Source of the DNA: a virus
Direction: 5' to 3' (one strand)
Length of the DNA: 29,407 nt
Virus record (IMG/VR): IMGVR_UViG_3300009073_000142
Coordinates: 1 to 29,407 of that record
Position 1 is the first letter of the stretch, and every line of letters starts with the position of its first letter. This document shows, one piece after another, positions 6,045-29,252 of the stretch. A model generated the notes under the pieces. That model was not told where the DNA came from, did not search any database, and saw only the letters and a program-made list of their open reading frames with translations. A program made the position numbers and the translations under genes.

Positions 6045-7805
6045 ATGCTAGAACCTCAAACTCAAGTTGTGCTCCTAGATCACAGCACAACTCAGGCTGT
6101 CTATATCCCCTTAAACAAGATCGAGCCCCATCCATTCAACCCTCGTCCTTATTCTCAAAAATATGGTTGGCGAGTCATTGATCAAAATGTTGAAGTACTG
6201 ATCCATTCCATTGATAGCTTTGGCTACGACAGTTCCGAGCCTGTGCTATTGCGAGATATGGAAGATGGGACCTATCAATGCATAAAAGGCCACACCCGAT
6301 GCGTGGCCCAAAAGACTAGAGGAGAGTCAGAGATCCTAGCATTTGTCCGCCAAATGAATGAAGTGGATGCTGCGATCGCATTAGTCACCCTACAAGGTTC
6401 CAGTGTTGACTCCTGGAGTCGCCGCCGCCATGCCTATGAATGCTGCCACAGCTTTGGCCATGGCAACCTGCTTAATGTCACTGAATATGCCGAAAAAATC
6501 AATGTGGCACGGCAAACCGTCAGTGCTTGGCTAAAAGAATACGAAGTCAGCTTGGCTTTAATCAAGTCAGACTTAATCTCTGAAGACAATCTAAGACAAA
6601 GCCTTAGCGCTAAAATGGCTAGTGATATTGCTCGCCTTGATTCCACCGATTGGGTATGGTTTGCCTCCGTGCTACTAAATCATACCTGGACAGAAAAAAA
6701 CCGACAAGCAGCCATTGACACCGTCGTAAACCTTTCCAATACAGAATTTCCCGAGAAACATCTAGGGTGGATCAAACTGCAAACCTGGAAAGAAGCAGCA
6801 GCCTTAGAGGCAGGAGACACCGGCAATACCAATGCCATTGGCCTCTTAAATGAATGCGTTGCTTGCGTCAATGTCGCCCTACTCAACATGGACGAACATC
6901 GCCCTGTCTGGATATTTAACAAAAACAATGAACCTAAATTAGAACACTGGAACTTGCAAAAGCATTTTCTTGAAAGGCTTGCCACCCTCAATTCCATCTC
7001 CCCTTTTCAAATTCAGCAGCAAGAGTCCTACTTATATGCAGAAATTCAAGAGCTAGATACAAGCTACAAAGCCTTTATCAAAGAACATGAAACTCAGCAA
7101 CAGCTGAAATTACATCAAGAAGCTGAGCGACAACGGCTATTAATTCTGCAGCAAAAATATTGCCCAGAAGCCACCAAGAATGTCATGGGTATTCCCGTCG
7201 AGATAAAACTAGACGCAGTCTTTATTAATCCCAGTAGCCTTAACTATAAATTTACTGATGAGCAACTAATCCTAGAAGCCACCGAAAACTTAAAAGACAC
7301 CGGATATGTGATTACGTTTATCCCCGATGGCCTTTCCTTGTTCCAGTGGCAAAGCGCTCTAGAATACACCGGATGTCTAAAGTTTTTGGAGCTGTTAACC
7401 TGGGTCAAACCAGGCTCAGCCCATCTTCATAGTGATGGCCGCTACGTCAATAACGTGGTGTTTGTCCATGTGGGAGTTCCCACTAACAGCACCACCCATT
7501 ACTTCAATGCTCTCAATACACACCTAAAGACCAGCATTGGATTTCCCGATGTGATTGAAACAGAAAAATTAAAGTGGTCAAAAAACCAAATTCCAATTGA
7601 TCTAGCCACTTATTTACTGAATCTATACACCCCCCCTGACGCCACCATTTTTGATTGTGCAACAGCCTGTGGCACCTTTAGTGCTTGCAGTAAATTCATG
7701 AAACGCAAAGCATTTTGGTATACAAACAAAGAGGCACTGTTTACTCGAATCAGCGAGCGATTGAATAACAGCCCTTTCCATGAAAGCCTTCAAATAACCC
7801 AATAA
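6045..7805 (+). CDS. ParB-like protein fused to a degenerate DNA methylase domain
   Basis: 586 residues. The N-terminus is a ParB/Srx-type domain: IPLNKIEPHPFNPRPYS (21-37), with the nucleotide-binding box here as CIKGHTRCVA (79-88). A HTH follows (TEYAEKINVARQTVSAWLKEY, 146-166). The middle is helical with a coiled coil (about 340-370). Residues about 388-575 have the layout of a beta-class N4/N6 DNA methylase (motif IV before motif I), but motif IV DPPY is NPSS (395-398) and the SAM loop, normally like DPFxGSGTT, is DCATACGTF (537-545). This suggests lost or altered catalysis. ParB-methylase fusions are frequent in phages, where they methylate or organise DNA. It starts 4 bases after the HicB-like stop and ends before a strong terminator. 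Confidence 0.75.
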   Translation: MLEPQTQVVLLDHSTTQAVYIPLNKIEPHPFNPRPYSQKYGWRVIDQNVEVLIHSIDSFGYDSSEPVLLRDMEDGTYQCIKGHTRCVAQKTRGESEILAFVRQMNEVDAAIALVTLQGSSVDSWSRRRHAYECCHSFGHGNLLNVTEYAEKINVARQTVSAWLKEYEVSLALIKSDLISEDNLRQSLSAKMASDIARLDSTDWVWFASVLLNHTWTEKNRQAAIDTVVNLSNTEFPEKHLGWIKLQTWKEAAALEAGDTGNTNAIGLLNECVACVNVALLNMDEHRPVWIFNKNNEPKLEHWNLQKHFLERLATLNSISPFQIQQQESYLYAEIQELDTSYKAFIKEHETQQQLKLHQEAERQRLLILQQKYCPEATKNVMGIPVEIKLDAVFINPSSLNYKFTDEQLILEATENLKDTGYVITFIPDGLSLFQWQSALEYTGCLKFLELLTWVKPGSAHLHSDGRYVNNVVFVHVGVPTNSTTHYFNALNTHLKTSIGFPDVIETEKLKWSKNQIPIDLATYLLNLYTPPDATIFDCATACGTFSACSKFMKRKAFWYTNKEALFTRISERLNNSPFHESLQITQ

Positions 7806-12535: not shown

Positions 12536-14416
12536 CTAACCTAGATGAATTTTATTGATGCAATTGCGTAAGTCTAAAAGCTTGGGATGATGACGTTTAA
12601 AAAGCGACACTCGCTTTTTAATTTCTACGTCCATATCTTCCGGTGGTGCAGTCATTTGTTCAGCATCAGTAAGGGTAGCTTTAGTTGTCTGCATGATCTG
12701 GCCAATCACTTGCTCATAGGGATGCTGGTCAATTAAGTCATGAAGATGCTGGCGATAAATTTTAAAGTTTTCAATGGTTGAAGCTGAAGCAAGATTTAGC
12801 CGATCAGTGCGCTCCAGCCATCGCTCCACCGCTGCAATGACCCATGGCACAAAAGAGTTTTGAGGCCCATGCCCCATAAATGCCAATTTATGATCCACTG
12901 CATAGATGTTCTGAGTGGGAAATTCTAAGTAAAGGTTGGCCACTGTCCGATCTGGGTTAGAGACAAACAAGTCAAACGCAGCTATTTTGGCTAAATCGGC
13001 GTGGCTAATGCTGTTCTCCCAGACCCTATCTGCCATCTCCGCTGACATAGGCATCAATCCCAGTTGAATCATGTAAGGACTTAGTACCGTTGAGTTCATG
13101 CCTATTTCAATCGGTGTGCCTGGCGGAATCAAGTGTAAGTTGCCGCCTATTTGCGATCGCAACTTAAAATTATTTCGGTAGATAATAGGTACAATCTTCA
13201 CCTCATTAACAGGTGTATTAGAAGAACGCCCGATATAGCTAGCTACAACCTCAGCTACCATTTCAGCGGTACGACCTGGGCAAATTATCTCCGGTTGCTG
13301 ATAAATCCCCTCTTCACCCGTCACAGGATTAAACACATATTGCGCTGTAGACGTAGTCCCAATCAATGCCTGTTTGTCCTTGTCCAACTCAAATTGATTA
13401 AATCGGTGCATCTTCACCACTTGCAAAAGAGGAAGATTCTCTGAGGTGAACTGAATAACTTGAGGCGACAATGTATCTGGCTGCCTTTGCCAATATCCGC
13501 CTTTGAATTGTTTTGGGTCTTTCACCCAATTACCAGTATCTTCACGGTCTTCTAACTCTCCACCTCCCACCAACTCAGGAGTTCGTTCTAGCCAATCTGC
13601 CGGATCATTCTCTCCACTCAAACCAATCAGGTGCTGGTTGCTATCTACAAACAAACTGACATTATTAAACGACACAAAAGTATCAGGGATACAAATTACA
13701 GGTTGTTGGCTACCAGACGGCACGTAGGCCAGAGTGATATGAGGTGTATATCCATGGTTTTGCTTATGCTCCAGCTTGCATAAGCTCAGAATATAAAGGA
13801 TGCGATCTCGCAAAGCTAACAGCTTAGGCGAATCAAACGTGGCATAAACAACATCCATCCAATCACTAGACGAGCTAGCGTTAAAACGTCCAATCCCTGA
13901 GATTGTCCCAACAATAGGCCAAGACCATTGGCCTAACTCTGACAAAAGCTTCAATAACTTTTTCTGCTGGGGTAACGAATCAAACTCACCTAAATAAGCC
14001 AAAGTAATATGCAGATTATTGGCCTGCTCCCGATTTGCGATCGGCACATGAGACAGCACCTCCAAGCCAATATGTTCTGGCAATGCCAATGCGATCATCA
14101 CCCGCTTAGGCTGCTTTAATTTAGCCGCACTGCGCTGGTGACGGGTAATCAGCGATTTCACAGCTGATTCATAAGTCGGGTTTAACTGCCTAGGGGCAAT
14201 TTCATCTAGACGGTATCCCAATGCTTTCAGGATGCTGGCACGAAATTGATCTGTACCAGCATCCTGACGCACTAGCGGTTGATGAAAAGACTGTACGCAA
14301 ACCTTTAAGACATTAGATGCCTCTTGGGTAATTTGCTCTTCACTTAAACCGTCCAGATTCACCCTAGGGTCAACCGCATGGATTAATGCCTTCGCATTAA
14401 TAGGTAGGATAGGCAT
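12536..14416 (-). CDS. Fusion of 2H phosphoesterase (2'-5' RNA ligase-like) and HipA-like kinase domains
   Basis: 626 residues. Residues about 103-260 form a 2H phosphoesterase with both signature motifs, LHITLAYLG (His136, Thr138) and PHITLAYVP (His226, Thr228). The fold is that of LigT/2'-5' RNA ligases and of the phage anti-CBASS nuclease Acb1, which cut cyclic or 2'-5' nucleotides. Residues about 330-560 resemble HipA-like Ser/Thr kinases: AAFDLFVSNPDRTVANLYLEF (479-499, with Asn487, Asp489, Asn494) and IYAVDHKLAFMG (504-515, Asp508), so both phosphotransfer motifs look intact. The N-terminal 100 residues are unrecognised. It sits in the portal operon, 3 bases after the twin-tag gene and 2 before the 1070-residue gene. 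I read it as host-directed (defence evasion or takeover), but the substrate is unknown. Confidence 0.7.
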   Translation of the reverse strand: MPILPINAKALIHAVDPRVNLDGLSEEQITQEASNVLKVCVQSFHQPLVRQDAGTDQFRASILKALGYRLDEIAPRQLNPTYESAVKSLITRHQRSAAKLKQPKRVMIALALPEHIGLEVLSHVPIANREQANNLHITLAYLGEFDSLPQQKKLLKLLSELGQWSWPIVGTISGIGRFNASSSSDWMDVVYATFDSPKLLALRDRILYILSLCKLEHKQNHGYTPHITLAYVPSGSQQPVICIPDTFVSFNNVSLFVDSNQHLIGLSGENDPADWLERTPELVGGGELEDREDTGNWVKDPKQFKGGYWQRQPDTLSPQVIQFTSENLPLLQVVKMHRFNQFELDKDKQALIGTTSTAQYVFNPVTGEEGIYQQPEIICPGRTAEMVAEVVASYIGRSSNTPVNEVKIVPIIYRNNFKLRSQIGGNLHLIPPGTPIEIGMNSTVLSPYMIQLGLMPMSAEMADRVWENSISHADLAKIAAFDLFVSNPDRTVANLYLEFPTQNIYAVDHKLAFMGHGPQNSFVPWVIAAVERWLERTDRLNLASASTIENFKIYRQHLHDLIDQHPYEQVIGQIMQTTKATLTDAEQMTAPPEDMDVEIKKRVSLFKRHHPKLLDLRNCINKIHLG

Positions 14417-14419
14417 CGG

Positions 14420-15532
14420 CTAAGCACAAGAGCAAGGCCGCTTATGGCGACATTCATAACAGCCGCACTCCGGCTCCGTCAGCATCATCTGTCCCGCCGC
14501 CGCCAAAGACGCCACATCAGGATACATTGCATCCTCATTCAGCTCATTATTGCTAAAGGTTTTGCGTGCTTTCTTCGCCGTGCGCCGCACAGTAGCTGCT
14601 GCTCTCAACCCTTGGCGTTTAGCTTTATGGCCCACCTGTTTTGTCTTTGTAGACGCCTCGCCACCAAGTTCTTTAGTCCCTCTAGCTATGTCAGCCCCCG
14701 CTTGCTTAGCTTGTCCGCCTAATCCCTTAGCTTTTCTACTTGCTTTTGCCCCAGCTACAACGCCTTTTTTGTATGTTTTTCTAGCAGACTTGCGGATATC
14801 TCCACCCACAGCTTTTGCTGCTTGGCTATAATCCACTTTATCCTTATCGTCCTTGCCCTTATTCAATTCATTGCGTTTCTTATGCACAGCATAAGCACCC
14901 CCTGCCCCAGCTGCCGCTACACCAGCAGCTGCTAGCCCTAAGGCCAATTTGCCGCCCCCTTTGCCAGAAGACCCACCCCCCTCATGGCACTCGGTATCAT
15001 CAGGGATATAAGAGTCGCCGCACTTCTTATCTAGGCGAGTTTGGGCATAAGACAAATCATAAATACTAGCGCTGTCATTGTGAGCAAGCGATCTTAAATG
15101 CAAAGTCAATGTTTTGATGTCAGCGTCGTCTTGACTATATCTGTCATAAGACATAGCACGATGCTGTTGGCGTCTTGTATTTGCCGCCCCAGACCTACTT
15201 GGCGTTGTCGCCCCAGACCTACTTGGCGTTGTCGCAGCCCGTTGCTTCATCTTTTCTGGGGTATTGTTCTTTCGCTGTGACCGTGCAATATTTCGTTTCG
15301 ATTTTTCCTGCTTTAGGCGTGAAAGCTTTCCTTTTTTACGCAATTTATTTGCGCCATAAGCAGCCCCTGCCACTCCTGCAGCTGCAACCCCTGCAACTGC
15401 TAAACCTTTGGCTAGCCCGCCCCCTTTGCCAGAAGACCCACCCCCCTCATGACACTCGGCATCATCAGGGATAAAAGAGTCGCCGCACTTCTTGTCTAAG
15501 CGCACCGTATTTCTATAACAACGAGTTGGCAT
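14420..15532 (-). CDS. Protein with two Cys-pair tag modules and Ala/Gly membrane-like segments
   Basis: 370 residues, no family known to me. It carries the same module twice: RLDKKCGDSFIPDDAECHEG (11-30) and RLDKKCGDSYIPDDTECHEG (166-185). Each is followed by GGSSGKGGG and an Ala/Gly/Val-rich hydrophobic segment (40-62 and 195-215) and then basic residues. Two PSRSGA-type repeats lie at about 101-117. Residues 245-325 are very rich in Lys, Arg, Ala and Gly, histone-like, and could bind DNA. The C-terminus is Cys-rich (PECGCYECRHKRPCSCA), a possible metal site. GGAG lies 8 bases before the ATG. The layout suggests a basic, membrane-seeking, packaged protein; that is inference. Confidence 0.65.
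   Translation of the reverse strand: MPTRCYRNTVRLDKKCGDSFIPDDAECHEGGGSSGKGGGLAKGLAVAGVAAAGVAGAAYGANKLRKKGKLSRLKQEKSKRNIARSQRKNNTPEKMKQRAATTPSRSGATTPSRSGAANTRRQQHRAMSYDRYSQDDADIKTLTLHLRSLAHNDSASIYDLSYAQTRLDKKCGDSYIPDDTECHEGGGSSGKGGGKLALGLAAAGVAAAGAGGAYAVHKKRNELNKGKDDKDKVDYSQAAKAVGGDIRKSARKTYKKGVVAGAKASRKAKGLGGQAKQAGADIARGTKELGGEASTKTKQVGHKAKRQGLRAAATVRRTAKKARKTFSNNELNEDAMYPDVASLAAAGQMMLTEPECGCYECRHKRPCSCA
14953..15505. repeat. Duplicated tag-coding segment
   Basis: The coding sequence for the tag and Gly-rich linker occurs twice as near-identical direct repeats of about 85 bases: 14953-15037 and 15420-15504. They differ at scattered positions such as GGCATC against GGTATC. A more diverged third copy is in the next gene at about 17545-17620. 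Confidence 0.8.
15185..15232. repeat. 24-bp tandem duplication
   Basis: Two exact 24-base units (15185-15208 and 15209-15232) encode TTPSRSGA twice within the twin-tag protein. Confidence 0.85.
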
Positions 15533-16408: not shown

Positions 16409-17665
16409 TTAACGTGGATCATCAATCTTGACCCCAGCAGCCAGTAACAACTGCATGAATTGAGCTTTGTACAAGTGCGTCAGTAAATCACCTGTAACAT
16501 CCAGTTCCGCAAACTGTTTTTCAAACTCCGTAATCTTGCTGACAATAACATCCACTGCCATCTGCTGATTCTCTGGCGTTGGCTCCATTGCATCTAGCAC
16601 CCACAAGCTGTCTGTATTGTCAGCTCGACCCGCAGTAGCCAACTGCTTCTTTTTCTGGCGATGCCGATGCTGTTTACGTTTGTTCCGTAACTTCCGCTCA
16701 ATCTTCTGATTTGGCGCACCATTGAGCGTATACTCTATCTCTTTGGCTGACAGCTTTGTGTCATCCAATAGGTAATCGTTAAATTTCTGGGTGGCATTTT
16801 TCGGATCAAACGAGGCAGCAGCAGCCCCCACTACCTTGGATGCAGATGAAGTAAAAGCACTGACGCGATCCGCTTGAGTGGCATAGGCCTTACCCTCCGT
16901 AATCGCCCGTGCTAAGCTCTCACAATTTGACTCAAACCCATTCCAAGTAAAATTGCGACCCACTAAGCTCTCTGCTCGTTTAACCACTTCTTCCGGGCTA
17001 TATTCCTTTGTCCCTTTCTTTAAATACATTTCCTCCTTTGGCACTGACTCAAACTGTGTGCCATTCTCCTCGATCTGGCCATCTAAGCCTGAGCGAACAA
17101 TCCTAGGACGAGTATCCGGCCCTTTAACTCCGTCTGGCCCCATGGTCACTTCAATCATCTCGTGGACACCCTTGTCGTTCTTGCCCACATAAACCCCGTA
17201 ATGATACCGGCGAATATCCTTAGCACCAGGCTGAAAAAACATCTTACGGATCATCTGGCCTGGTTCAAACTTGTCATAGGTGGCCCGTGTTTCATCGTCA
17301 GGCATTCCATCAGCAGGCCTGCGCAAAGTTGGAACGTCTTTAGCGATCTCACTAGCTTTTACATCATGGTTAATAGTTCCTACGGCAGTTCCTAAAGCAG
17401 CTGCACCTGTAGCGGTGCCAGCTGCTGCGATCATGGCAGCATTTCGTAAATCCTTATTCAAGCCGTGCTTTTTAGGCACAGAAGCACCGCTACGGGCCTT
17501 AGATTTAGCGCCTGCAGCTGCCAGCCCTAACTTCTCTTTGCCACCAGACTTGCCCTTACCTATATGGCATTCAGCGTCATCAGGGATATAAGACTTCCCG
17601 CATTTCTTGTCTTGGCGCACAGCATTGTACGCAGTCCAATACGCATCGTTTTCGATAGTCGTCAC
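16409..17665 (-). CDS. Cys-pair-tagged protein with LRAT/NlpC-P60-like domain
   Basis: 418 residues. It has a tag RQDKKCGKSYIPDDAECHIG at 17-36, then an Ala/Gly hydrophobic stretch (73-98). Residues about 133-268 look like an H-box/NC (LRAT-like) domain of the NlpC/P60 superfamily: FEPGQMIRKMFF, RYHYGVYVG (His155), KGVHEMIEV (His168), LVGRNFTWNGFESNCESLARAI (Cys248). Members are thiol acyltransferases or lipases on membrane lipids, or peptidases. The catalytic Cys and both His are present. The C-terminal part has a very basic patch (KLRNKRKQHRHRQKKK) and helices. The start is GTG at 17665; AGAGGTGA, overlapping the portal stop, serves as its ribosome-binding site. The stop is TAA at 16409-16411, with the same frame continuing open beyond it. 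Confidence 0.7.
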   Translation of the reverse strand: MTTIENDAYWTAYNAVRQDKKCGKSYIPDDAECHIGKGKSGGKEKLGLAAAGAKSKARSGASVPKKHGLNKDLRNAAMIAAAGTATGAAALGTAVGTINHDVKASEIAKDVPTLRRPADGMPDDETRATYDKFEPGQMIRKMFFQPGAKDIRRYHYGVYVGKNDKGVHEMIEVTMGPDGVKGPDTRPRIVRSGLDGQIEENGTQFESVPKEEMYLKKGTKEYSPEEVVKRAESLVGRNFTWNGFESNCESLARAITEGKAYATQADRVSAFTSSASKVVGAAAASFDPKNATQKFNDYLLDDTKLSAKEIEYTLNGAPNQKIERKLRNKRKQHRHRQKKKQLATAGRADNTDSLWVLDAMEPTPENQQMAVDVIVSKITEFEKQFAELDVTGDLLTHLYKAQFMQLLLAAGVKIDDPR

Positions 17666-17668
17666 AAC

Positions 17669-19351
17669 TCACCTCTTGTTTAACTGCGCCCACCGTCGGC
17701 CATACACAGAGTCTGGCCTTAGAAAAGGTTGATATAAAGTTAATGCTGAATCTTGCTTTTGCTCCTCTTCTACAGCGGGAAGTGCTGCTTGCTCTTCTAG
17801 CTGCGCATCTGGCAGCTGTTCCAATTCTTCTGGACTAGCAAATTCTTCTAAGTTACTAAAGTCACCGAATCCTCCAAAATCCTCAAAGCCCAAATCTTCA
17901 TATCCCTCTTCTCCCATCCCTTCTTGACCTGGCTGCCCCCCTTCAGCCTGAGCCATTGCCCTGTCAACCGCCGCTTGGTACTGTTCTTGGTCTAAGACTG
18001 TCTCGTGGGAATACTGAGATCCTCCAAACCGTGATTGGCGCACTTCCTGAGGTAATAACACTTCTAGGCCGACATAAGTCTGATCCACACTGGCTTGCTG
18101 AGATCGCTTGGCAATAATGTCCATTTCCGACTCAACCACCAATGACTTATAGTCATAGCTCCAGTCGTCAGGTAGTACTCCGCCTGTAGGACCGTCTTTT
18201 GCCTTAAAGATCAGCGTAAACAACCGTTCATGGATAGGTCTAATATGTTCTTCTTGGTACTGACTGATCGTCTCAGCCCAAGTAAACATCTCACTCTCTC
18301 CAGTGGCACCTAAGCCACTAGGGCTTTCCCCAAACAAAATAGTATGAGGAATTTTAGTAGCCCCAATCAACTCATTGCGAAACCCTTCTGCAATATCTGA
18401 TAACCCTGAATAATTACGGGTTAAAAATTCTGCCCTTTCATTGGAATCCACCACCAATCCCCGAAAGGTAGACAACCCCATCATGATTAGCTCAAATCTG
18501 CGCTTTAACTCTGCCTCTCCCCCTTTTTGAGTAGACAGCTGCTTAAGGTTATTCATGGTGAACACAAACACATCAAAGCTAGCCACCATATTGGCAATGC
18601 CTGCATTGACGGTGTCGTACCGCTGAAATGCATCAAATATCAAGTTGATTAAAGACTGTCCCCACCCATAAGTGTTAAATGGGTTGCGCAACATCATATC
18701 GGGAGGCACTTCAATGCCATCAAACCGCAATATGCGACTGTTATGCACATATCGGTTTCCGTCTTTTTGTAAATCGCCTAATTTACGGGCATAGTGCCGC
18801 GATAACACCAACTCATACCGCACTGGATCTAGGGGATTAAAGTCCAAAGTCAAATCAGGCCGCAGATGATTAGTGTCTAGAGGTTCAATGGTACGGATTG
18901 ACTGAATATTATCCTCGTCTAATGGCTCCCAAGCCGGTCGGCCATCCTCAATCACCATCACCCCCCCACAACCCCCATAAATGGCACTCCATGTGCCCAT
19001 CCGAGTTAAAGTCTTTTTTAGGTGTAATCGTTTCGTGTAGTCATTAAAATCTGAGATGACGCTTTGTGCCGAGTCATCTCCCCCTAACTTCAACTCATAT
19101 CCTCGACGCAAAGCTGCTCCAATATGCGCAGTGCACGCTCGCTGTAACAACCAACTAGATGCATATAACTCTTCCAACTGGATCTTATTAAGCCGACGCC
19201 CCATCCCCACTTGGGTATGCATGGACTTGTCATACTCAGGGATACCCACACCAGTTAAAGCGTTGTATAGCGCTCCAGCATCCATTCTGAATTCATCAGT
19301 TCTTTGAGCTGAATCAGCTTGGTTGGCTATATTCTCAGTATCAGAAGGCAT
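17669..19351 (-). CDS. Phage portal protein (DUF1073 type)
   Basis: 560 residues matching the DUF1073 portal family: GIPEYDKSMHTQVG near the start, WLLQRACTAHIGAALRRGYEL (68-88), GTWSAIYGGCGGVMVIEDG, YVHNSRILRFDGIEVPPDM, and the signature GATKIPHTILFGESPSGLGATGESEMF. The portal is the dodecameric DNA channel at one head vertex. The C-terminal ~110 residues are an acidic Gly/Glu-rich tail (YEDLGFEDFGGFGDFSNLEEF) instead of the 2H phosphoesterase domain found attached to some DUF1073 proteins. That domain type occurs two genes further on here, in a separate protein. First gene of the 19351-7932 operon; the terminal TGA doubles as part of the next gene's ribosome-binding site. Confidence 0.85.
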   Translation of the reverse strand: MPSDTENIANQADSAQRTDEFRMDAGALYNALTGVGIPEYDKSMHTQVGMGRRLNKIQLEELYASSWLLQRACTAHIGAALRRGYELKLGGDDSAQSVISDFNDYTKRLHLKKTLTRMGTWSAIYGGCGGVMVIEDGRPAWEPLDEDNIQSIRTIEPLDTNHLRPDLTLDFNPLDPVRYELVLSRHYARKLGDLQKDGNRYVHNSRILRFDGIEVPPDMMLRNPFNTYGWGQSLINLIFDAFQRYDTVNAGIANMVASFDVFVFTMNNLKQLSTQKGGEAELKRRFELIMMGLSTFRGLVVDSNERAEFLTRNYSGLSDIAEGFRNELIGATKIPHTILFGESPSGLGATGESEMFTWAETISQYQEEHIRPIHERLFTLIFKAKDGPTGGVLPDDWSYDYKSLVVESEMDIIAKRSQQASVDQTYVGLEVLLPQEVRQSRFGGSQYSHETVLDQEQYQAAVDRAMAQAEGGQPGQEGMGEEGYEDLGFEDFGGFGDFSNLEEFASPEELEQLPDAQLEEQAALPAVEEEQKQDSALTLYQPFLRPDSVYGRRWAQLNKR

Positions 19352-19494: not shown

Positions 19495-21285
19495 ATGGAC
19501 TATACCTCTGCATTAGTACGCGCAGCTCAAGCCACGTCCACTGCACTTATTGAAAACATCAAACCTAAACTAAAAGATTTTATTTATGCAGAAACAGTTA
19601 CTCCTATAAATGCCGAGCATTTACTTCGTACTATCCAGCATTCAAATCAGCCCATTACTCCTGAGATATCAGAGCTGATCATCCATGCTAGCCATCGCAT
19701 GTCTTACAACCTCAAGCGCATTGATCTTGCCATTGGCTTATTAAGCATTTTGGCCCAAGCAGATAGACAAAACTTCGACTGCTTGACCCAACTAGCCCTT
19801 CACTTGCAAACTAGTGGCCAAACTCAAGCCGGATTAGCTACTGCCTATAAAGCCCGTAAAGCCGCTACGCATCCTTTAGACCAGATATTTGCTAACTACT
19901 TAATCATGAGAGGCATGATGATGGCCTGCAACGGCTACTTCATTGACTTCGTTAGCGACATTAAACAGCAAATGGTGGATCAGATTAAATCTCTTGGCAG
20001 CCAGTCACTATCAGGCAACAGCACCCAAATGATCCGCCTTTACTCCGTCAATTACTGGATCCCCTATTTTCTAGATCGGCCCCAAGAATTTAGAGAGATC
20101 CTTCGCTTCACCCACACTGCGATCGCAACCTTCTTAAAAGCAAGCCACCCAAAAATCTCTGAGAAATGCGATCGCCTTAGAACCAAGCCCACCGATCGCA
20201 ACAATATCCGTATCGGCTTTATTGGTCACACCTTCAGCACCCATTCTGTGGGCTATCTGCTACGCCATCTAGTGTGCAACCTTGAACGATCTGACGTGCA
20301 CCTCTATGCCCTTATGCTTTTACCCAAAAACCCAGGAGAAGACCCCCTCCAAGACTGGTATGAATCCTGTATGCACACCACTCGCCACTACAGCACTGAC
20401 GGTCCTACCATTGCCAGCCAAGTGGCAGATTTAGAGCTAGATATCCTCATAGACCTAGATTCCCTCACCCTAGACATCACCCAGGCAATCATGGCTTTTC
20501 ACCCTGCCAAAGTGACTATGTCTTGGCTTGGGTATGATGCAGCCAGCAACACCGGCACAGATTACTACCTGTGCGATACCTTTACATGCCCTGAAAGCCA
20601 AGCCCAGTTTTACCAAGAGCAACTCTTATATTTAGACCAACTCGTTGGTGTTAACGGCTTTGAATCAGGATTGCCCTCTCTCCAACGCAGCGACCTAGAT
20701 ATCCATGACGAATTTGTCTACCTCGTCATCCAGCGCTCAACCAAACTACATCCTTTTGTCTTTGATTTGTACATGGAAATCTTGAGTCGCACTAAAAATA
20801 GTGTACTAATCCTCAAATGCCCTGGTGACAACGACCTTATTCAAACCTTTGTTCAAAATGTAGCTGCCACTCACAAAATAGATCAACATCGCATTAAATT
20901 TATGCCCATCTCCGCCAACGAGCAAATCCATCGTGCCAACATCCAAATCATGGCTGACTGCATCCTAGATAGCTACCCATACTCTGGTGCTACCACTACC
21001 CTAGAGTCGCTGTGGAACACAATCCCCATCGTCACCTTTTGTGGTGAACAAGTTAGCTCTCGAACAACCGCTAGCTTTATCACCGCTCTAGACTGTGCTT
21101 ATCTTGGCGTTGCCCATAATGGTCCAAGTTTTATTGAAAAAGCCGTGCAGCTGTGCACCATTGAAGAACGTTATCAAGAGTACAAGAACCGCCTACACAC
21201 AGCCAAAACCAAAAGCCACAGTATTTGGGATGCAGAAACCTTTGCCCATAACTTTAAGCAAACCATTCTCTCAGTGCTCAACTAG
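19495..21285 (+). CDS. SPINDLY/GT41 O-GlcNAc-transferase-like glycosyltransferase
   Basis: 596 residues. The N-terminal ~215 are helical with TPR-like repeats (for example FDCLTQLALHLQTSGQTQAGLATAYKA). Residues about 237-596 match the bacterial SPINDLY-type OGT domain: IRIGFIGHTFSTHSVGYLL, FHPAKVTMSWLGYDAASNTGTDYYL, DCILDSYPYSGATTTLESLW, and a C-terminal FAHNFKQTI. These enzymes transfer a nucleotide-activated sugar to Ser/Thr of proteins, and the TPR part binds the protein. It starts at ATG 19495 without a clear ribosome-binding site. The 3' end overlaps the convergent giant glycosyltransferase gene by 15 bases. Its position beside the portal suggests a virion or host protein as acceptor (inference). 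Confidence 0.85.
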   Translation: MDYTSALVRAAQATSTALIENIKPKLKDFIYAETVTPINAEHLLRTIQHSNQPITPEISELIIHASHRMSYNLKRIDLAIGLLSILAQADRQNFDCLTQLALHLQTSGQTQAGLATAYKARKAATHPLDQIFANYLIMRGMMMACNGYFIDFVSDIKQQMVDQIKSLGSQSLSGNSTQMIRLYSVNYWIPYFLDRPQEFREILRFTHTAIATFLKASHPKISEKCDRLRTKPTDRNNIRIGFIGHTFSTHSVGYLLRHLVCNLERSDVHLYALMLLPKNPGEDPLQDWYESCMHTTRHYSTDGPTIASQVADLELDILIDLDSLTLDITQAIMAFHPAKVTMSWLGYDAASNTGTDYYLCDTFTCPESQAQFYQEQLLYLDQLVGVNGFESGLPSLQRSDLDIHDEFVYLVIQRSTKLHPFVFDLYMEILSRTKNSVLILKCPGDNDLIQTFVQNVAATHKIDQHRIKFMPISANEQIHRANIQIMADCILDSYPYSGATTTLESLWNTIPIVTFCGEQVSSRTTASFITALDCAYLGVAHNGPSFIEKAVQLCTIEERYQEYKNRLHTAKTKSHSIWDAETFAHNFKQTILSVLN

Positions 21286-24200
21286 GGGATTAACAATATC
21301 CGACAACAGCTCCCCTATGCGAGTAGAAAAAACCAATCGACTGCTATGATCCGTGAATTTACTTACAGGATTATCTGCAAATGCTGCTTTGGTGCGCAAC
21401 CATAACTGCTGATCCGAGAAATAAGATTCAATCAGACTGCTAACCAATTCCATGTATTCCGACTTAGACCCCACCACTTGCATATGCATTCCTAACACCT
21501 CAAGCATAGAAGCCCCCATGTTAGACACAGGCAACTCATTGGCAGCCGTAACAATAGGGATATTCAGCTGCAAAGGATCCAATAAAGACGTCATCCCTCC
21601 ATAAGGAAAGCTATCTAAATATAAGTGAGCCCCCTGTAAGTGGGCTAGTAGTTCAGAACGGCTACCAAGGGGAGACTGTAAAACCTTGACTCGCTCCAAC
21701 AAGTCAGCGCCCACTTCCCCTGCCTGCTCATGCAAATGCTCCATAAACCTTTGCACTGGGTACTTATTACTCCAATTAGGGTTAAACGGGTACAAGAACA
21801 AACAGGCCTGCTCATGGTTGTTAATAATCTCCAAATACGTCCTCAGCATAATGTTATTGAGCTTGTAGAAATTCGCACCACAAATCATCACAAATTGGTC
21901 TTTGCCAAACAGCTCACACACCGTAGTGCATTGATGGGTCTCATCCACTGGCAACATATGAAAAACTTGAGCTGGCGAATTATGGACAATCAGCTTTTCT
22001 GAGTAATGCTCAGAAAATTGACGCTGTTGCGAAGTGTCCCCCACAAAATAACTAGAGGTAATATAGCCATCGATAGTAGAAAATTGAGGGCTAATAGGGC
22101 AATTGTGAGAAATAACTTGGTACCGAGCCAATCGAAACTGAGCCAGTAAGCTACTGATATTGGTCACAGCTGTCAGATTAGAGCCAAAGTAAATCACATC
22201 AAAATTCAACTCTCGAATTGCACGTACTGCTTGCTGCAAAAAGGTTTTCATCCCCTCGGCATCTTCAGATGCTAAAGGACAAATATCTGAGAGGATCACA
22301 GTTTGATTCACATAGTTCTTTGCTATATCCATCACCTGTGATGGATTGTCATAGACACTGAGTAAAGTCACCTCAGTGTTTTCGTTCGGTATGTTCAGCC
22401 AAGGCAAATTTGCATAACCCTCAGTCTGAGAAGCCATGGTTTCCACTAGCACACCAATAGAAATTGGCGTGTCCGGCTGTTTTGGTTCCATCTCCCATTC
22501 GAGATCCATGCCCCAAGCCTTCATCAGCGATTGGAATAAATCAGCCCGCCGCCGCATAGTAAATTCAGCCTTGTCTAAGAAGTAAATGGGGATAAAATTT
22601 AGCTGAGCTAGAACTTGAGCCGTAAAACCAGAAATCCCTTTACATTCGGCCTGAAGCGTCTGAAGCAGACTCACAAGCCCGCTTAAAACAGTCCCATAAA
22701 CTTCAATATCGTCAACCGTTAAAGTGGCAAAATTTGCAAATTCATTTATAGCCCCTACCCCTTCTACAACATGTTTTCTTAACTCGTTTTGAAACAATAA
22801 AGAGTCATAATTTTGGTTAAACACAGACTGTTGAACAAACACCTCTTTCTCAATAGAGGCTTGGTACACCCCATCTAAGTTTTTCCAAACTGGTAAATCG
22901 GGAAATCTGCATTCTGAAGATGACTTCCCAGCAAATAACAGCTTAAAAACCATGCTACTAGGGATGTGCTGTCCAGAATGAATGCCAATATTTTCAACAA
23001 GGTGTGTGCTAGACAATACACAAAACCCATTATTCTCCCAAATCTTCAACTGCCATAAATAATCCCAGTTCAGATTGCCAGCAACTAAATGCTTAAATTT
23101 AGCGGTCCAAAAATCAACAAAATGGTGGCTAAAGGACGGTACACCCTGGAATTTTGGCTCAAAATTCCTTTGGATCATTGCCCTCAATCTGTCTGGGTGC
23201 GATAAATAGCTCCCATTAACTTCTGTCATCCGGGCTTTTTGCCAACGGCTTTTCCAAGTAGCCCATCCCCAGCAGTGAGGGAATTTAGACAAATGCAGCG
23301 ACTCTTCTTCTGGATTGAGTTGAAAGTTATTGCCACTGATATGCCAAATTCGCTGATCTCCTTCAAAATGGTTCAGCATTTGTTGGCAGTACTGGAAAAA
23401 AGTAGGATCTGGAACGCAGTCATCCTCTAAGATGATGGCTCGATCCGTCAACTCAAACACCTGCTGCAAGCCTGAAATAACCCGATGGGCTCCACCCATG
23501 TGCTCATCCGCCTCAATCCAGGCTATTGGGCAATCTCGAAACCCCTGCTCAATAATCTCCTTGACGTCCTTGCATAGCTGGTGATCCTCTTGTGCACCTG
23601 GAGCATCAAGAATCGCATACACAATACCAGGATTTGCAGCTGCGATCGCATTCACAACAACCTGCGTCAATTCAGGCCGATTGTAGGCAATCAGCACCAC
23701 AGGAGTCTGTAGCTTCGGATCTTTCCACTCAAAGTAAGCACCCCCCACTTGAGTAATTTCCTTTAGCTTCACCTGGGGATAAGCAACAACAAACTCATCA
23801 ACCGCTTTTTTAGTCCCTCGCCAATGGTGATAGTCGTCCACCTGAACGACCGCCCCTGCACTTAAATAAAACGCAGAAGACATCAAAGTTTTTAACGTAC
23901 TTTTATAAAAGTCTGTGTCGCTGTGCAAAAATGCAATTTCATCAATGTATTCGCTTAGAAAAGCCTTGTAATCTGTGTTGATATTTATCTTCACCAGCTC
24001 AAAAGGCTGATCGTCGCCGCCTAGTGCAGCCAAAATATTATCAACTACTTTTTGCTCGTTAACCGCAAGATCTCCCTCAGCCCGTTCAGAAGGAGCAGCA
24101 GACGTGCCAGCTATCTGTCCATCCTGGCTTCCTGGGGCAACCATTCCGGTAAAAGTATCTACCCCATGCACTAGGCGATATTGTTTGCTGTAGTGGTTGA

Positions 24201-26517
24201 CCACATATATCAAGACAGCTGTAGATCCACCCTGGTAAACCCCACAATCTATAAAGTCACCAGGGATGCCAGCTAAGCAGACAGCCTTAGCATTCTCAAA
24301 TAGTTGCCGCAAACGGTCCTTAGGCAAGAGAGTTATGTCTTTGACCTGCTTATAAAGCAGGTCAAACTCCGTATTCGAGTGATCTAATTCTGAAGCTTTA
24401 CCTTGCATGATTTGTCCGCTTAACGACTTCAAGAAATCAGGAGTCGGCCAATCTACGGCTGGATCTGGGCAATGCAAAGGCAAATCGACATTCCCCCTAA
24501 ATACCACTCCTATCATCTGCTGAGTTGTATAAATCCTGAATTTCCAGCCCTGTTCTACTAAATACAAAAAGCCTTTGTAAACATCAGGACTAACTAAGTC
24601 GTGAAATATAATGGCACAACGGTCGCTAACTACTTTTGAAGCTGCGATCGCATCTGCTAAAGGTGCCTCCCCCTCATGGTCTCCATCAATCAAAATTAAA
24701 TCAAAAGGGTCCCCCTCATATTGCTCAAAAAACTGTTCACTTTTGGTCGGGATTAGTTGTGTTCGGCTAATTAAATTGGTGTCATACAGCAAATTCACAA
24801 GATAAGCCTTCCATGGAGACTGATTTCTGAGACTCTCACCCAGCAACACATCCACAATAGTCAGCTGTGACTCAGGCACTTGAAGCAAGTGAAGGGAGCA
24901 CCACCCAAACCAACAGCCAATTTCAAGCATATTTTTGCGGGGAAACTGCAAGGCTATGTTGTAAAGGATCGTGGCCTCATCTAAATTGAAATACCCCACC
25001 ATAGGATAGTCCCGATGAAAATACATCTGGTGAGGGATGTGGCTCCGTAAATAATCCCAGTTAGAGCGCACAACTCCTGAATCAAGGCTAGGAAACAGAG
25101 GCCGTAAATCTATAGGAGTTAAATTTGGTGAAACGTAGTCATAGTAACTCTTTTGCTTTAGACTTCCTTCAATGACCCCAATTAAACTCGAAGTCATATC
25201 TGCTTCAAGAAACCGCTCAACTAAATAGTTTTTTTGAGTTAGACACCGTTCGCTAATCAAAGCAGGGTCTTGAGTAAAGAAATTACAAATATGCGCCGCC
25301 AACTCTGCTTCGTCAATGTCAGAAGGAACTACAAATAATTCATCCCCTGCAAAGATCTCTGGGATACCTCCTACATTAGAAGCAATAACCGGCACCCCAG
25401 CAGCCATAGCCTCCAAAATTGCCATAGGCAGTCCTTCGTACTGGCCAAGGTGCACAAACAAATCGGCAATATTTAAGTACGGTAAAACATCACTCTGGTG
25501 ACCAATAAATGTAACATCACTATCCAACTTCAAAGCAAAAACCAGATTCTCTAAGGCCTGTCGTTCTGGCCCATCCCCTACAATCAGCAATTGAAACGAA
25601 TTCTCTGGCATTTGCTGCTTTATTAGCTTTTTAAATGCTCTAACTATTTTGCCGACTTGCTTTTCTGGAGAGAGTCGGCCTACACAGACAATGGTCTTCA
25701 TTTCTGTTAGGGGCAAGATTCCTTGGTTTACGCACAAAGGAATCAAAACACTTTTAGGCAAAGGGATAAAATAACGAGAATCAACCCCGTTATAGATAAC
25801 ACGTCCTTTATGCTCTAGATGAAAATATTTTTCCAAGCAAGCTAAGCTGTATCCGCTCACAGCGATCACATCTTCTGCCCTGCCGTAAATCAGTTTTAAT
25901 CGTTCACACTCTGCTGCAAACTTATCTTGCAAATATGGCTCCACCAGGTGCTCGATGCAAATATACGGAACTTCTGCTAGAGCAGCCGCTTCACGGGCTG
26001 CAAGCATAGAAACTGGGCAGCTATCTTCAAACACGATCAAGTCCGGCTCAAAATCTTGAATTAAAGTCAGAACCGGACTAGAGTCTGTAAGAGTGCTGCT
26101 GAAGTGAGTGACGGTATTGTAAGGAATTTCATAGATAAATAAATTGGGATGCTCAGATAAATCCTCTAACCGCAAATCTTCAGTGGAAGACATCGCCAAT
26201 GCTACGGTAAAACCCGCCTGGATTAATTGCTTAGCAAGACTAAAAGCATGGGTGGCTACCCCACCCCATCCTGGATCATCTGTAATCAAAGCAATTCGTT
26301 TGCTTCGCCCATATCCAGACTCTGACTTGCTGTATTGATTAAGCTGATCTGGTAGTTTTGAAATCACTATCTGGGGATCAGTTTCAGGCTCTCCTACTAA
26401 TATCTGAGTGGGCTGGTATTGGCCCATGCCGTAAGTCTCGGGAATGCAAAATTGCGCTATGTCACCTGTAGCCAGCTCAATGAGCAAAGGTTGATACCGT
26501 ACATTTGCTTGACTCAT
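21271..26517 (-). CDS. Five-domain glycan enzyme: GT4, methyltransferase, TylF-like methyltransferase, GT-A, GT41-like
   Basis: 1748 residues from ATG 26517 (a GTG at 26535 would add six; numbering below is from it). Domains: GT4 (about 80-455) with IVCVGRLSPEKQVGKIVRAF and GQYEGLPMAILEAMAAGVPVIAS (E367, E375); class I SAM methyltransferase (505-680) with MLEIGCWFGWCSLHLL and DLILIDGDHEGE; TylF/macrocin-type O-methyltransferase (735-935) with GDFIDCGVYQGGST, HSDTDFYKSTLKTL and QVDDYHHWRGTKKAVDEF; GT-A transferase of the HlpA-like type (943-1190) with IILEDDCVPDPTFFQYC and CWGWATWKSRW; a helical linker; and a C-terminal GT41-like domain (1355-1754) with LYLDSFPYGGMTSLLDPL. Motifs of the first four domains look intact. 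It probably builds and methylates an oligosaccharide in one chain. No ribosome-binding site is clear. It converges on the SPINDLY gene. Confidence 0.85.
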   Translation of the reverse strand: MSQANVRYQPLLIELATGDIAQFCIPETYGMGQYQPTQILVGEPETDPQIVISKLPDQLNQYSKSESGYGRSKRIALITDDPGWGGVATHAFSLAKQLIQAGFTVALAMSSTEDLRLEDLSEHPNLFIYEIPYNTVTHFSSTLTDSSPVLTLIQDFEPDLIVFEDSCPVSMLAAREAAALAEVPYICIEHLVEPYLQDKFAAECERLKLIYGRAEDVIAVSGYSLACLEKYFHLEHKGRVIYNGVDSRYFIPLPKSVLIPLCVNQGILPLTEMKTIVCVGRLSPEKQVGKIVRAFKKLIKQQMPENSFQLLIVGDGPERQALENLVFALKLDSDVTFIGHQSDVLPYLNIADLFVHLGQYEGLPMAILEAMAAGVPVIASNVGGIPEIFAGDELFVVPSDIDEAELAAHICNFFTQDPALISERCLTQKNYLVERFLEADMTSSLIGVIEGSLKQKSYYDYVSPNLTPIDLRPLFPSLDSGVVRSNWDYLRSHIPHQMYFHRDYPMVGYFNLDEATILYNIALQFPRKNMLEIGCWFGWCSLHLLQVPESQLTIVDVLLGESLRNQSPWKAYLVNLLYDTNLISRTQLIPTKSEQFFEQYEGDPFDLILIDGDHEGEAPLADAIAASKVVSDRCAIIFHDLVSPDVYKGFLYLVEQGWKFRIYTTQQMIGVVFRGNVDLPLHCPDPAVDWPTPDFLKSLSGQIMQGKASELDHSNTEFDLLYKQVKDITLLPKDRLRQLFENAKAVCLAGIPGDFIDCGVYQGGSTAVLIYVVNHYSKQYRLVHGVDTFTGMVAPGSQDGQIAGTSAAPSERAEGDLAVNEQKVVDNILAALGGDDQPFELVKININTDYKAFLSEYIDEIAFLHSDTDFYKSTLKTLMSSAFYLSAGAVVQVDDYHHWRGTKKAVDEFVVAYPQVKLKEITQVGGAYFEWKDPKLQTPVVLIAYNRPELTQVVVNAIAAANPGIVYAILDAPGAQEDHQLCKDVKEIIEQGFRDCPIAWIEADEHMGGAHRVISGLQQVFELTDRAIILEDDCVPDPTFFQYCQQMLNHFEGDQRIWHISGNNFQLNPEEESLHLSKFPHCWGWATWKSRWQKARMTEVNGSYLSHPDRLRAMIQRNFEPKFQGVPSFSHHFVDFWTAKFKHLVAGNLNWDYLWQLKIWENNGFCVLSSTHLVENIGIHSGQHIPSSMVFKLLFAGKSSSECRFPDLPVWKNLDGVYQASIEKEVFVQQSVFNQNYDSLLFQNELRKHVVEGVGAINEFANFATLTVDDIEVYGTVLSGLVSLLQTLQAECKGISGFTAQVLAQLNFIPIYFLDKAEFTMRRRADLFQSLMKAWGMDLEWEMEPKQPDTPISIGVLVETMASQTEGYANLPWLNIPNENTEVTLLSVYDNPSQVMDIAKNYVNQTVILSDICPLASEDAEGMKTFLQQAVRAIRELNFDVIYFGSNLTAVTNISSLLAQFRLARYQVISHNCPISPQFSTIDGYITSSYFVGDTSQQRQFSEHYSEKLIVHNSPAQVFHMLPVDETHQCTTVCELFGKDQFVMICGANFYKLNNIMLRTYLEIINNHEQACLFLYPFNPNWSNKYPVQRFMEHLHEQAGEVGADLLERVKVLQSPLGSRSELLAHLQGAHLYLDSFPYGGMTSLLDPLQLNIPIVTAANELPVSNMGASMLEVLGMHMQVVGSKSEYMELVSSLIESYFSDQQLWLRTKAAFADNPVSKFTDHSSRLVFSTRIGELLSDIVNPLVEH

Positions 26518-26653
26518 GATTTTGCGATCGTACACAGTACTTCAGCCCTAATGGTAGTTCGGTACTGCACCCAAGAGGTGCCCGATTGTTTATTGCGCTC
26601 CGTTACCCCGTTTTGCAAATTAAAAATGATGATAGTCAATATGAGTAAATATC
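26518..26653. promoter_or_regulatory. Divergent intergenic region
   Basis: About 136 bases between the divergent starts of the giant glycan enzyme (-) and the 26654 gene (+). Promoters of both must lie here or just upstream. It contains AT-rich stretches (TTGTTTATTG, AAATTAAAAATGATGATAG) but no pair of boxes I can defend. A six-codon ORF starts at 26641 and ends over the start of the 26654 gene; it could be a leader or chance. Confidence 0.3.
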
Positions 26654-27322
26654 ATGCCTGAAGAAACTGGACAACAAGGCGGTACACTAGCCTTCACCAC
26701 TTCGTTTACCACCACATCCAGTAATGTTGCTGCACTGCAAGGCATATCCCATATGGATACGCCCCAGCAAGGTAGTATTTCATTCCATCAATCTCTATCT
26801 AGCGGCGAACCAGTTCAAAGTGACTCTTTTGAAGTCGGCGGAGCATTTGCCCCTGGAGACCAAACGGTTGTCACTCTCACTAAAGCAGGGCAAGCGACTG
26901 ATTACGTTAACCAAGTGCAAACAGGTGAAACCTTTGAAGCAATTCTTGATAATCTAGTCAGCCGTATCAATCTAGACGTTGATGTTGCCGCTGACTATAC
27001 CTACACCGGAACTGTTGGAGCAGTAACCTTAAAAAGTGCTACTGGTGAAAACTACACCGTTGCAGTAACCAGCTCTGGAGGAATGACCACCTCAACCGTC
27101 ACTTCCATCTCTACAGGGTCTGGTGCAGCTGCCTTAAAAATGCGCAAGCTAGGAGAAGTGACTGTAAATTACAGCCTAAACTCACAGGGTAATCCCCAAG
27201 TCCAAGATACTTACAAGTTTTTTGATGGCGCTGAAACCCCTGCCCTCGTTCAGTCTTTAACCCTATCCGCTCAAGTTCATCCTCTAAATATCATTCAACT
27301 CCAGCAAAATAATGGCGCTTAA
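26654..27322 (+). CDS. Beta-rich phage structural protein (tail-tube- or cement-like)
   Basis: 222 residues, Thr/Ser/Gly/Val-rich with few charged helices, as in phage tail-tube or decoration proteins. Residues about 68-150 (GDQTVVTLTKAGQATDYVNQV, GETFEAILDNLVSRIN, GAVTLKSATGENYTVAVTSSGG) resemble the inserted domain of the cement protein at 2798. The C-terminal third (VTVNYSLNSQGNPQVQDTYKFF) is also beta-like. No exact family is recognised. Its TAA overlaps the ATG of the next gene by one base, so it heads a coupled four-gene operon. Confidence 0.55.
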   Translation: MPEETGQQGGTLAFTTSFTTTSSNVAALQGISHMDTPQQGSISFHQSLSSGEPVQSDSFEVGGAFAPGDQTVVTLTKAGQATDYVNQVQTGETFEAILDNLVSRINLDVDVAADYTYTGTVGAVTLKSATGENYTVAVTSSGGMTTSTVTSISTGSGAAALKMRKLGEVTVNYSLNSQGNPQVQDTYKFFDGAETPALVQSLTLSAQVHPLNIIQLQQNNGA

Positions 27323-27999
27323 TGAACTTAGAGTTTGAATATGTGCACCGCTGCTGGATTTATGCAGCAGCAGAAAAAACACCCTATACCGTAGATGCCT
27401 ATGCCAAACAACAAGGAGTGAGTTTTGACCCCGGCACTTGTTTGCTGCGAATGGTTTTCCCAAACCAAGACGCTGCATTAAACTGTGTAGCAGGAAATCA
27501 AGATTTTGAAATTCTCTACAATGTGCCACAATTCACGTTCGTGGAGTTCTTAGCACAGGAAAAGCCCGTGAGCGGTAAAGACACCATGGGCTTAAGTGAT
27601 TATGTTGTACCTGCTTACACAAGTGGAGATGCGATCGCATTTATCCAACAACAAGCCACAAGTATCACCCCCTTGCAAATTGTAGAACCCGGAAAAGCGA
27701 CTGGTCATAATCAAGTGGCAATCCATCAAGGGGGAAAGTTTGAAGCCTCTAAAAATCTGAAAGGGAAAACAATCACTATCCGCCGCTTGCCTGTGATCTA
27801 CCCTGAAGTCATTAATGGTCTTACGAAACCCCTACCTTCTATTACCGTTCATCTCGTATTCACAGACCGCCAAGGGCGCTTCCAGTTATACTCTATTAAT
27901 GCCCCAGAGATTATTCCCACCAATCAATACACCACTACTGAAGTGATCATCCAAGCTAAGGTCAACCTTGACAAGGTCAGCTGTCGCGCCTTTGCTTAA
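27322..27999 (+). CDS. Hypothetical protein of the 26.6-29.3 kb phage operon
   Basis: 225 residues, not recognised. Mixed alpha/beta composition with a charged N-terminus (MNLEFEYVHRCWIYAAAEKTPYTVDAYAKQQG), a Gln/Thr-rich middle and a beta-rich second half (TVHLVFTDRQGRFQLYSINAPEIIPTNQYTTTEVIIQAKV). No signal peptide or membrane segment. The start overlaps the upstream stop (TAATG), and the next gene begins 18 bases after its stop. Operon position suggests a tail or neck component. Confidence 0.6.
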   Translation: MNLEFEYVHRCWIYAAAEKTPYTVDAYAKQQGVSFDPGTCLLRMVFPNQDAALNCVAGNQDFEILYNVPQFTFVEFLAQEKPVSGKDTMGLSDYVVPAYTSGDAIAFIQQQATSITPLQIVEPGKATGHNQVAIHQGGKFEASKNLKGKTITIRRLPVIYPEVINGLTKPLPSITVHLVFTDRQGRFQLYSINAPEIIPTNQYTTTEVIIQAKVNLDKVSCRAFA

Positions 28000-28017: not shown

Positions 28018-28473
28018 GTGTTGGCTAGAGCTAAACAGCAAATCTTTATCCACAACATATCCATAGGGCAGCATATCAAGTTCCATCGGGATCAAGGGCC
28101 AACACTCCCAGAAGAACTGGTGGTTGCCAGTATGGAGCAAACGCCTCGACCTATCTTGCAAGAAACCCTAAATCTACTGATCCCTCTAGTCATTAATGAA
28201 TGTTGCCTGAGTGATCAATGGGAAGTTGATGGTGAAATTCGAGGGCTAAGTCTGAAATGGAATACGCCCACAGAGTACAGCATTGCCAATATCTCTATTG
28301 CCCTAAACCGAGAGAGAAGACAGTCAGTAATAGTGTCTATGCCCCGTATCAGCATGGATTATATAAGCATGGACACTGAAAAAATTATTGACAACGTGCT
28401 GAAATATGCCAAAGATTACTTAGACGGTAAGTATGCGCAGCTGGAATTATCCTTAGTGCGCAGCATCAGTTGA
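28018..28473 (+). CDS. Hypothetical protein of the 26.6-29.3 kb phage operon
   Basis: 151 residues, not recognised. GGAGG at 28010-28014 precedes two adjacent possible starts, GTG at 28018 and TTG at 28021; the TTG has the better spacing (6 bases). The second half (EYSIANISIALNRERRQSVIVSMPRI, then KIIDNVLKYAKDYLDGKYAQLELSL) is strand-strand-helix. It overlaps the next gene in a TTGA junction. Confidence 0.6.
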   Translation: MLARAKQQIFIHNISIGQHIKFHRDQGPTLPEELVVASMEQTPRPILQETLNLLIPLVINECCLSDQWEVDGEIRGLSLKWNTPTEYSIANISIALNRERRQSVIVSMPRISMDYISMDTEKIIDNVLKYAKDYLDGKYAQLELSLVRSIS

Positions 28474-29252
28474 GCGAAACTCAAGAAATCACCTACGGCC
28501 ATAGCATCATTCGCTTAATTCGCGCCCCAAAAATGCGTGATGTACCACTTATCCATGGCTATCACAATCGAATGCGTGCTGCCATGGATAAATATAGTAT
28601 TCCTGACTGGCCACCTGATCTACCCATGCTCGAATGGTACGTTCACTACCACCAAGAGCTAGACTGGCCAGCCACATTGTTACCCTCAGAAAACACAACC
28701 TTATGTGAATTCTGCTATGAGCATTTTGGCTTCTACTACCACCGTATTTCTGAATTCTTGCAATGCGAAAATGAACCCCTAGGATTCAACTGGATTGAAA
28801 ACGCCGAACTGCGATCGCTTCATGAATTTTTTGTTGCCACAGAAGAAGTACAACACTGGGAGCATGAAGAACTGATTCCAGGTCTTTCCCGCCTTCGACA
28901 AATGCTAGGTCAGAGCTATCCAGATCCAACCATAGAACCAGAGCCTTATAAACCCCTGCCTAGTGGCTGCGAAGTGGCTGGCATAATTGCCAATTTATGC
29001 GTCAACTTTGAAGGAACAGGCCCCCTGCAATGGCTAGAAGTCAGCCCTTACCTAGGTCGATGCATCTTACAAGATGCCCATGAATTATCTCAGCGCGCAC
29101 AAGATGAATCCAAAAAAGGCAAATCCACAAAAGCTAAGCGAGTACCACCTTCCATCGTAGAAGGTGAAGACCGGTCAGATTTTGTGGAAGTAAAACCCTA
29201 CATCAAATCTCAATTAGACGAATGGGAGATTAAGTACCCGCCCAACTTCTAG
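28470..29252 (+). CDS. Hypothetical protein of the 26.6-29.3 kb phage operon
   Basis: 260 residues from a TTG at 28470 that overlaps the upstream TGA (TTGA), so it is translationally coupled. The sequence is rich in Trp, Tyr, His and Glu (SIPDWPPDLPMLEWYVHYHQELDWPATLL), with a CEFCYEHFGFYYHRISEFLQC cluster (about residues 72-92) that could bind metal, then acidic helices (FFVATEEVQHWEHEELIPG) and a basic Ser/Lys linker near residues 215-230. No family is recognised. It is the last phage-like gene; six bases after its stop comes the GCGGGG hairpin at the presumed IS end. Confidence 0.55.
   Translation: MSETQEITYGHSIIRLIRAPKMRDVPLIHGYHNRMRAAMDKYSIPDWPPDLPMLEWYVHYHQELDWPATLLPSENTTLCEFCYEHFGFYYHRISEFLQCENEPLGFNWIENAELRSLHEFFVATEEVQHWEHEELIPGLSRLRQMLGQSYPDPTIEPEPYKPLPSGCEVAGIIANLCVNFEGTGPLQWLEVSPYLGRCILQDAHELSQRAQDESKKGKSTKAKRVPPSIVEGEDRSDFVEVKPYIKSQLDEWEIKYPPNF

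Follow-up and report, generated by a model that had tools for sequence, protein, structure and literature searches.

Multidomain viral enzymes that build glycans, and phages that carry glycan genes as cargo, are already known in kind. In the chlorovirus PBCV-1, the protein A064R is a single polypeptide of two rhamnosyltransferase domains and one methyltransferase domain (GT-GT-methyltransferase), which finishes the glycan of the capsid protein and O-methylates its terminal sugar, and A111/114R joins three glycosyltransferases (GTs) in one chain (PMC9614988, PMC7826918). Che8 and Rita, two mycobacteriophages, have also been reported to bear glycans on capsid protein (cited in PMC11256854), and proteins are the substrates of the GT41 enzymes OGT and SPINDLY (PMC9715652). 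Among phages of cyanobacteria, Synechococcus phage S-CBS4 carries GT4-like, GT2-like and methyltransferase genes (gp014-gp016) between its portal and protease genes. As far as our literature search reached, a multidomain glycan enzyme that includes a methyltransferase was not found for tailed phages. Here we describe a two-gene cassette in a metagenomic IMG/VR virus record of 29,407 bases (hereafter the window, meaning the whole of this stretch), in which five such domains share a single reading frame.

The window is a fragment of a tailed virus that is related, judging from protein similarity, to the cyanophages PaV-LD, CL131 and S-CBS4. A cyanobacterial host is likely, because the major capsid protein is nearest to that of Planktothrix phage PaV-LD (40%) and the portal to those of Aphanizomenon phage CL131 and S-CBS4 (36%); these are the phage head genes beside which a sequence-only reading of this DNA had correctly placed the long chain. 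The cassette consists of exactly two genes (Table 1), the long gene and a gene for a 596-aa GT41 protein that the earlier reading had not mentioned; the two are convergent, and their 3' ends overlap by 15 bp.

Table 1. Predicted features of the cassette and its surroundings (window coordinates; aa, position in the long chain)
Feature	Position	Strand	Basis
Major capsid protein	1797-2759		
Portal gene, left border of cassette	17669-19351	minus	PHROG 146/220; 36% to CL131 and S-CBS4 portals
Second cassette gene, 596-aa GT41 protein	19495-21285	plus	PF13844, 3.1e-31
Five-domain chain, 1754 aa	21271-26535	minus	GTG start at 26535; alternative ATG at 26517
GT41-type domain and region before it, about aa 1283-1754	21274-22689	minus	Profile search; alignment
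HlpA-like GT-A glycosyltransferase domain, about aa 939-1225	22861-23721	minus	Homologues; EDD at aa 1037-1039
TylF/NovP-type O-methyltransferase domain, about aa 716-937	23725-24390	minus	Pfam; PDB matches including NovP; alignment
Methyltransf_24-type SAM methyltransferase domain, about aa 468-703	24427-25134	minus	Pfam; homologues in L131 and L104
GT4 glycosyltransferase domain, about aa 79-467	25135-26301	minus	Pfam; BshA-type structures; EX7E
Homologue of PaV-LD ORF056L / CL131-type portal neighbour, right border of cassette	26654-27322	plus	
Homologue of PaV-LD ORF055L and CL131 gp010	27322-27999	plus	
Homologue of PaV-LD ORF054L and CL131 gp007	28470-29252	plus	

The long gene runs from its GTG through 1754 codons with no internal stop. 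The sequence-only reading had described a single chain of about 1750 residues at 21271-26517; that frame is real, and the reading evidently used the ATG six codons in, which gives a version of 1748 codons. Its five catalytic domains are borne out by Pfam, by a GT41 profile and by HlpA-like homologues, in the order GT4 - methyltransferase (PF13578) - TylF-type O-methyltransferase - HlpA-like GT-A - GT41, and at the level of family assignment these comparisons confirm the union of three sugar-attaching and two methyl-attaching enzymes in one protein. Family support is clear for four of the five. The GT4 domain matches PF13439 (aa 90-253, 6.6e-18) and PF00534 (aa 278-419, 3.6e-34), both above cut-off, with BshA-type GT4 enzymes as its nearest solved structures, and the two methyltransferase domains match Methyltransf_24 (aa 537-646, 4.9e-17; 63 bits against a cut-off of 26.3) and TylF (PF05711, aa 735-916, 2.8e-21; 76 bits against 23). 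The Pfam match of the GT41 domain (aa 1547-1701, 9.6e-6) falls just under its cut-off (24.6 against 25 bits), and a three-member profile built from the C-terminal part of the chain and its Acaryochloris and Azospirillum homologues matches SPINDLY over the whole catalytic region (1e-37) as well as human and bacterial OGTs over the catalytic region, the homology spanning both catalytic lobes. The GT-A assignment is drawn from close homologues and a conserved EDD motif: all Pfam models stay below cut-off in this stretch (best GNT-I, E 0.016), which aligns with most of the length of standalone bacterial proteins that carry the annotation HlpA-like or glycosyltransferase, the best being a plasmid protein of [Synechococcus] sp. 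NIES-970 (162 bits, 33%). Matches of this domain to solved structures (GnT-I, POMGnT1) were weak, and its single-sequence model reached a pLDDT of 37.5 (37-38 across the single-sequence models), too low to be of use. No TPR family was matched by Pfam in the long chain or the 596-aa protein, although degenerate repeats are still possible.

The catalytic motifs of the first four domains are intact, as they had looked to the sequence-only reading. The GT4 domain carries the EX7E motif as EGLPMAILE (aa 367-375), the Methyltransf_24 domain has LEIGCWFGW (SAM motif I) and an acidic IDGDHEG, the TylF domain shows DTDFYKST and VDDYHHW, both of them conserved in NovP and further family members, and the GT-A domain has LEDDCVP and WGWATWK. 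In the GT41 domain of the long chain, Lys at aa 1558 aligns with K665 of SPINDLY and the FPY-G-T motif keeps its Tyr and Thr, and Gln stands at the position of SPINDLY His495. SPINDLY itself loses its activity when K665 is lost, and its H495A and H495F variants are dead, possibly through an effect on structure (PMC9715652); the GT41 domain of the long chain may accordingly be inactive or altered. From the aligned residues, domains one to four look competent and the GT41 domain uncertain; rather than several domains lacking catalytic residues, only the last has one of them replaced. The separate 596-aa protein keeps the His, Lys, Tyr and Thr equivalents, including His at the H495 position.

The place of the cassette is defined by comparison with related phages. 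In PaV-LD, the ORF056L/055L/054L set starts 98 bp from the portal and diverges from it, and CL131 shares this arrangement with a gap of 69 bp, so that the gap of 7.3 kb in the window stands against about 70-100 bp in annotated relatives. Judging from these genomes and from further viral loci, the divergent gap between the portal and the ORF056L-type gene is a cargo site, because one locus (L017) has no insert there and three others hold unrelated cargo of 3.5-4.8 kb (L014:6503-9986, L018:5177-9953 and L021:6503-9986), comprising a cupin-like protein, cysteine-rich proteins without a Pfam match and an adenylate-kinase-like protein. The cassette thus has the mark of phage cargo (a moron), namely additional genes where related phages have an empty site. 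Its GC and GC3 equal those of the phage genes, and a recent acquisition detectable by odd composition was rejected on these grounds. GC3 is also alike across all domains of the long chain. Promoter-like sites were fewer than in shuffled sequence and terminators were near chance. No sugar-nucleotide synthesis gene was seen within the window, and donors would therefore come from the host or from the rest of the genome.

Several other genes in the window were noted as well. Two successive head-region proteins (14420-15532 and 16409-17665) share a cysteine motif, KKCG-S-F/Y-IPDD-ECH with a Gly-rich stretch after it, of which one minor protein has two copies and the next has one; a pattern search found it in none of the fetched relatives. 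The second of these genes, which adjoins the portal, also contains an LRAT/NlpC-like domain (7e-7) with a strong homologue in L012:3-3683. A further protein of the head operon (12536-14416) combines a 2H phosphoesterase (2'-5' RNA ligase-like) domain with a HipA-like kinase domain; the 2H fold is common to some phage anti-CBASS enzymes. In the head region, the gene at 6045-7805 combines a ParB_N domain with a weak match to N6/N4 DNA methylase, and the start of an IS605 OrfB/TnpB-type gene (1-381) is cut by the window edge.

To the sequence-only reading, this order of domains in a phage locus was unfamiliar. The order itself was found nowhere else in the collections searched; the locus, in contrast, is not unique in kind, because GT and methyltransferase genes flank the portal almost constantly in S-CBS4-like cyanophages, where they are separate genes. 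We fetched 80 viral portal loci (L012-L091) by similarity, of which 46 continue for 2.5 kb or more beyond the portal, and an S-CBS4-type GT4 gene lies downstream of the portal on the same strand in 44 of these 46, a figure that describes this lineage and not phages at large since the loci are the best-scoring ones. Several S-CBS4-like loci add further GTs (PF04488, DUF4422, CAP59), methyltransferases (TylF/Methyltransf_24-type, FkbM and C-methyltransferases) and UDP-galactopyranose mutase. Like the window, these islands set GT and methyltransferase genes beside a related portal; unlike it, they hold separate genes downstream of the portal and on its strand, whereas the window has a fused chain on the portal's other side. 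The GT4 domain of the long chain and S-CBS4 gp014 both match PHROG 2170, and there is no direct sequence match between the two, so that nothing points to a recent fusion of that very gene.

No full-length relative of the chain was found in viral contigs, phage records, plasmids or species genomes. Since the viral contigs and species genomes were searched with exact short peptide patterns, which find close relatives only, the architecture may still occur in cyanobacterial chromosomes, and the novelty of the five-domain order applies to the collections searched, in which those chromosomes had no sensitive search. A portal scan of genomes gave a sole match (L092), in a phylum without PsaA. In viral contigs, the GT41 alignment and a first GT-A alignment had no matches, an improved GT-A alignment found five loci and the TylF alignment at least 80; the best relatives of the single domains are bacterial. 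Parts of the chain are fused or colinear elsewhere. On viral contig L104, TylF, Methyltransf_24 and Methyltransf_11 are fused in one chain of 871 aa, which both methyltransferase domains of the window match at about 30%; here the order of TylF and Methyltransf_24 is the reverse of that in the window, the protein has no GT4 or GT41 domain, and the gene comes after a frame that resembles a transposase, so that the contig may partly be host flank. On L107, separate genes for Methyltransf_24, TylF and HlpA-like GT-A proteins follow one another as the domains do in the long chain, the first two being separated by a radical SAM gene; none of these proteins has a GT4 or GT41 domain. In L131, FkbM, TylF and the closest Methyltransf_24 homologue lie beside phage tail genes. 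These domains thus travel together as genes, and the long chain could most simply be read as several such genes fused. Among cellular proteins, a 1587-aa glycosyltransferase from a plasmid of Azospirillum sp. B510 (L006) is likewise a long chain with GT4-type domains and a C-terminal GT41 domain (26% identity), but in it the methyltransferase and HlpA-like domains of the window chain find no match.

With moderate confidence, and reasoning from domain content and by analogy, we propose that the cargo cassette makes a glycan with O-methyl groups, probably attached to a protein of the virion or of the host, following a logic like that of A064R and with a virion protein as the most likely target. 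If active, as we infer, the product of the long gene would be a cytoplasmic chain carrying out several sugar and methyl transfers, in which the GT4 and HlpA-like GT-A domains may add or extend sugars, the TylF and Methyltransf_24 domains may O-methylate sugar hydroxyls, and the GT41 domain, together with the separate 596-aa protein, may attach sugar to protein; the order of these steps is our proposal. The presence of two GT41 modules suggests a protein acceptor, since characterised members modify proteins, and the setting among late structural genes speaks for a virion protein, most likely one from the neighbouring operon. In favour of this proposal are the five domains in one frame with their motifs, the defined insertion site, the GT4 genes at 44 of 46 sister loci, the lack of a membrane-like stretch, the TylF and Methyltransf_24 genes by the tail genes of L131, and the precedents of A064R and of Che8 and Rita. 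Against it stand the absence of the cassette from the nearest sequenced relatives, the Gln at the His495 position and the lack of a sugar-nucleotide synthesis gene in the window. The methylated-oligosaccharide assembly line for a virion or host protein put forward in the sequence-only reading accordingly has a footing in the five transferase domains and the phage structural region, while the assembly line and the virion target go further than these, with the GT41 domain short of one active-site residue.

The cassette might instead alter sugars at the surface of the host cell (those of lipopolysaccharide, sheath or capsule), for instance against superinfection, in which case the chain would modify a surface glycan and not a protein. 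Methylation of the end sugar commonly caps surface polysaccharide, and bacterial surface-glycan clusters (NIES-970 plasmid, Azospirillum, Niveispirillum) encode these domain types in proteins of their own. We nevertheless consider this rather unlikely, given that neither cassette protein has a membrane-spanning-like stretch (best 19-residue mean hydropathy 1.55), that the cassette lies in the late structural region and adjoins the portal, with no integrase seen within the window, and that such GT41 enzymes as OGT and SPINDLY have proteins as their targets (PMC9715652). A host cytoplasmic protein might also be marked during takeover, for example by O-glycosylation of a regulator, the other domains extending and methylating the mark. 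Eukaryotic GT41 proteins modify intracellular proteins (PMC9715652), and the GT41 module is the element common to both cassette genes; the structural-region position and the portal islands of sister phages point to a late, virion-related use, which makes such a role improbable in our judgement. It is quite improbable, too, that the cassette is a recently acquired piece of cyanobacterial chromosomal glycan machinery with no selected viral function, or a decaying gene: the bacterial best relatives of single domains, the active-site residue lost from the long-chain GT41 and the failure to find a second copy of the architecture among the viruses searched would fit, but 1754 codons are kept without a stop, the motifs of four domains are intact, and GC and GC3 are phage-like. 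Finally, the record is metagenomic and possibly incomplete, but an assembly artefact or chimera is very improbable because it would need four junctions that all keep the frame, and because the domains resemble one another in GC3, in an insert of uniform composition whose borders are both homologous to PaV-LD/CL131 neighbour genes in the same order.

Returning to a glycan-building cassette for a virion protein, its fullest version would be a one-chain assembly line of a tailed phage that begins an oligosaccharide on a virion protein of the phage itself, lengthens it and methylates it twice, and so the equivalent, in a bacterial virus, of the chlorovirus enzymes, having evolved by fusing enzymes which are separate beside the portal in sister phages; this we put forward tentatively, as a possibility. 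Should the chain work, it would allow one to ask, by way of just one gene, if tailed phages glycosylate their particles and for what reason. Furthermore, the near-constant GT and methyltransferase genes beside the portal of S-CBS4-like cyanophages suggest that glycosylation of virion or host is regular in the life of these abundant viruses and tends to be missed in annotation. The sequence-only reading had held that a one-chain assembly line for a methylated oligosaccharide would be new, which holds for this five-domain order in the collections searched and not for virus-encoded multidomain enzymes as such. In domain make-up, A064R and A111/114R resemble the long chain as virus-encoded single chains with several transferase domains; they differ in belonging to a virus of a eukaryotic alga and in having three domains in 638 and 860 aa, respectively, whereas the chain described here has five, among them two methyltransferases and a GT41 domain.
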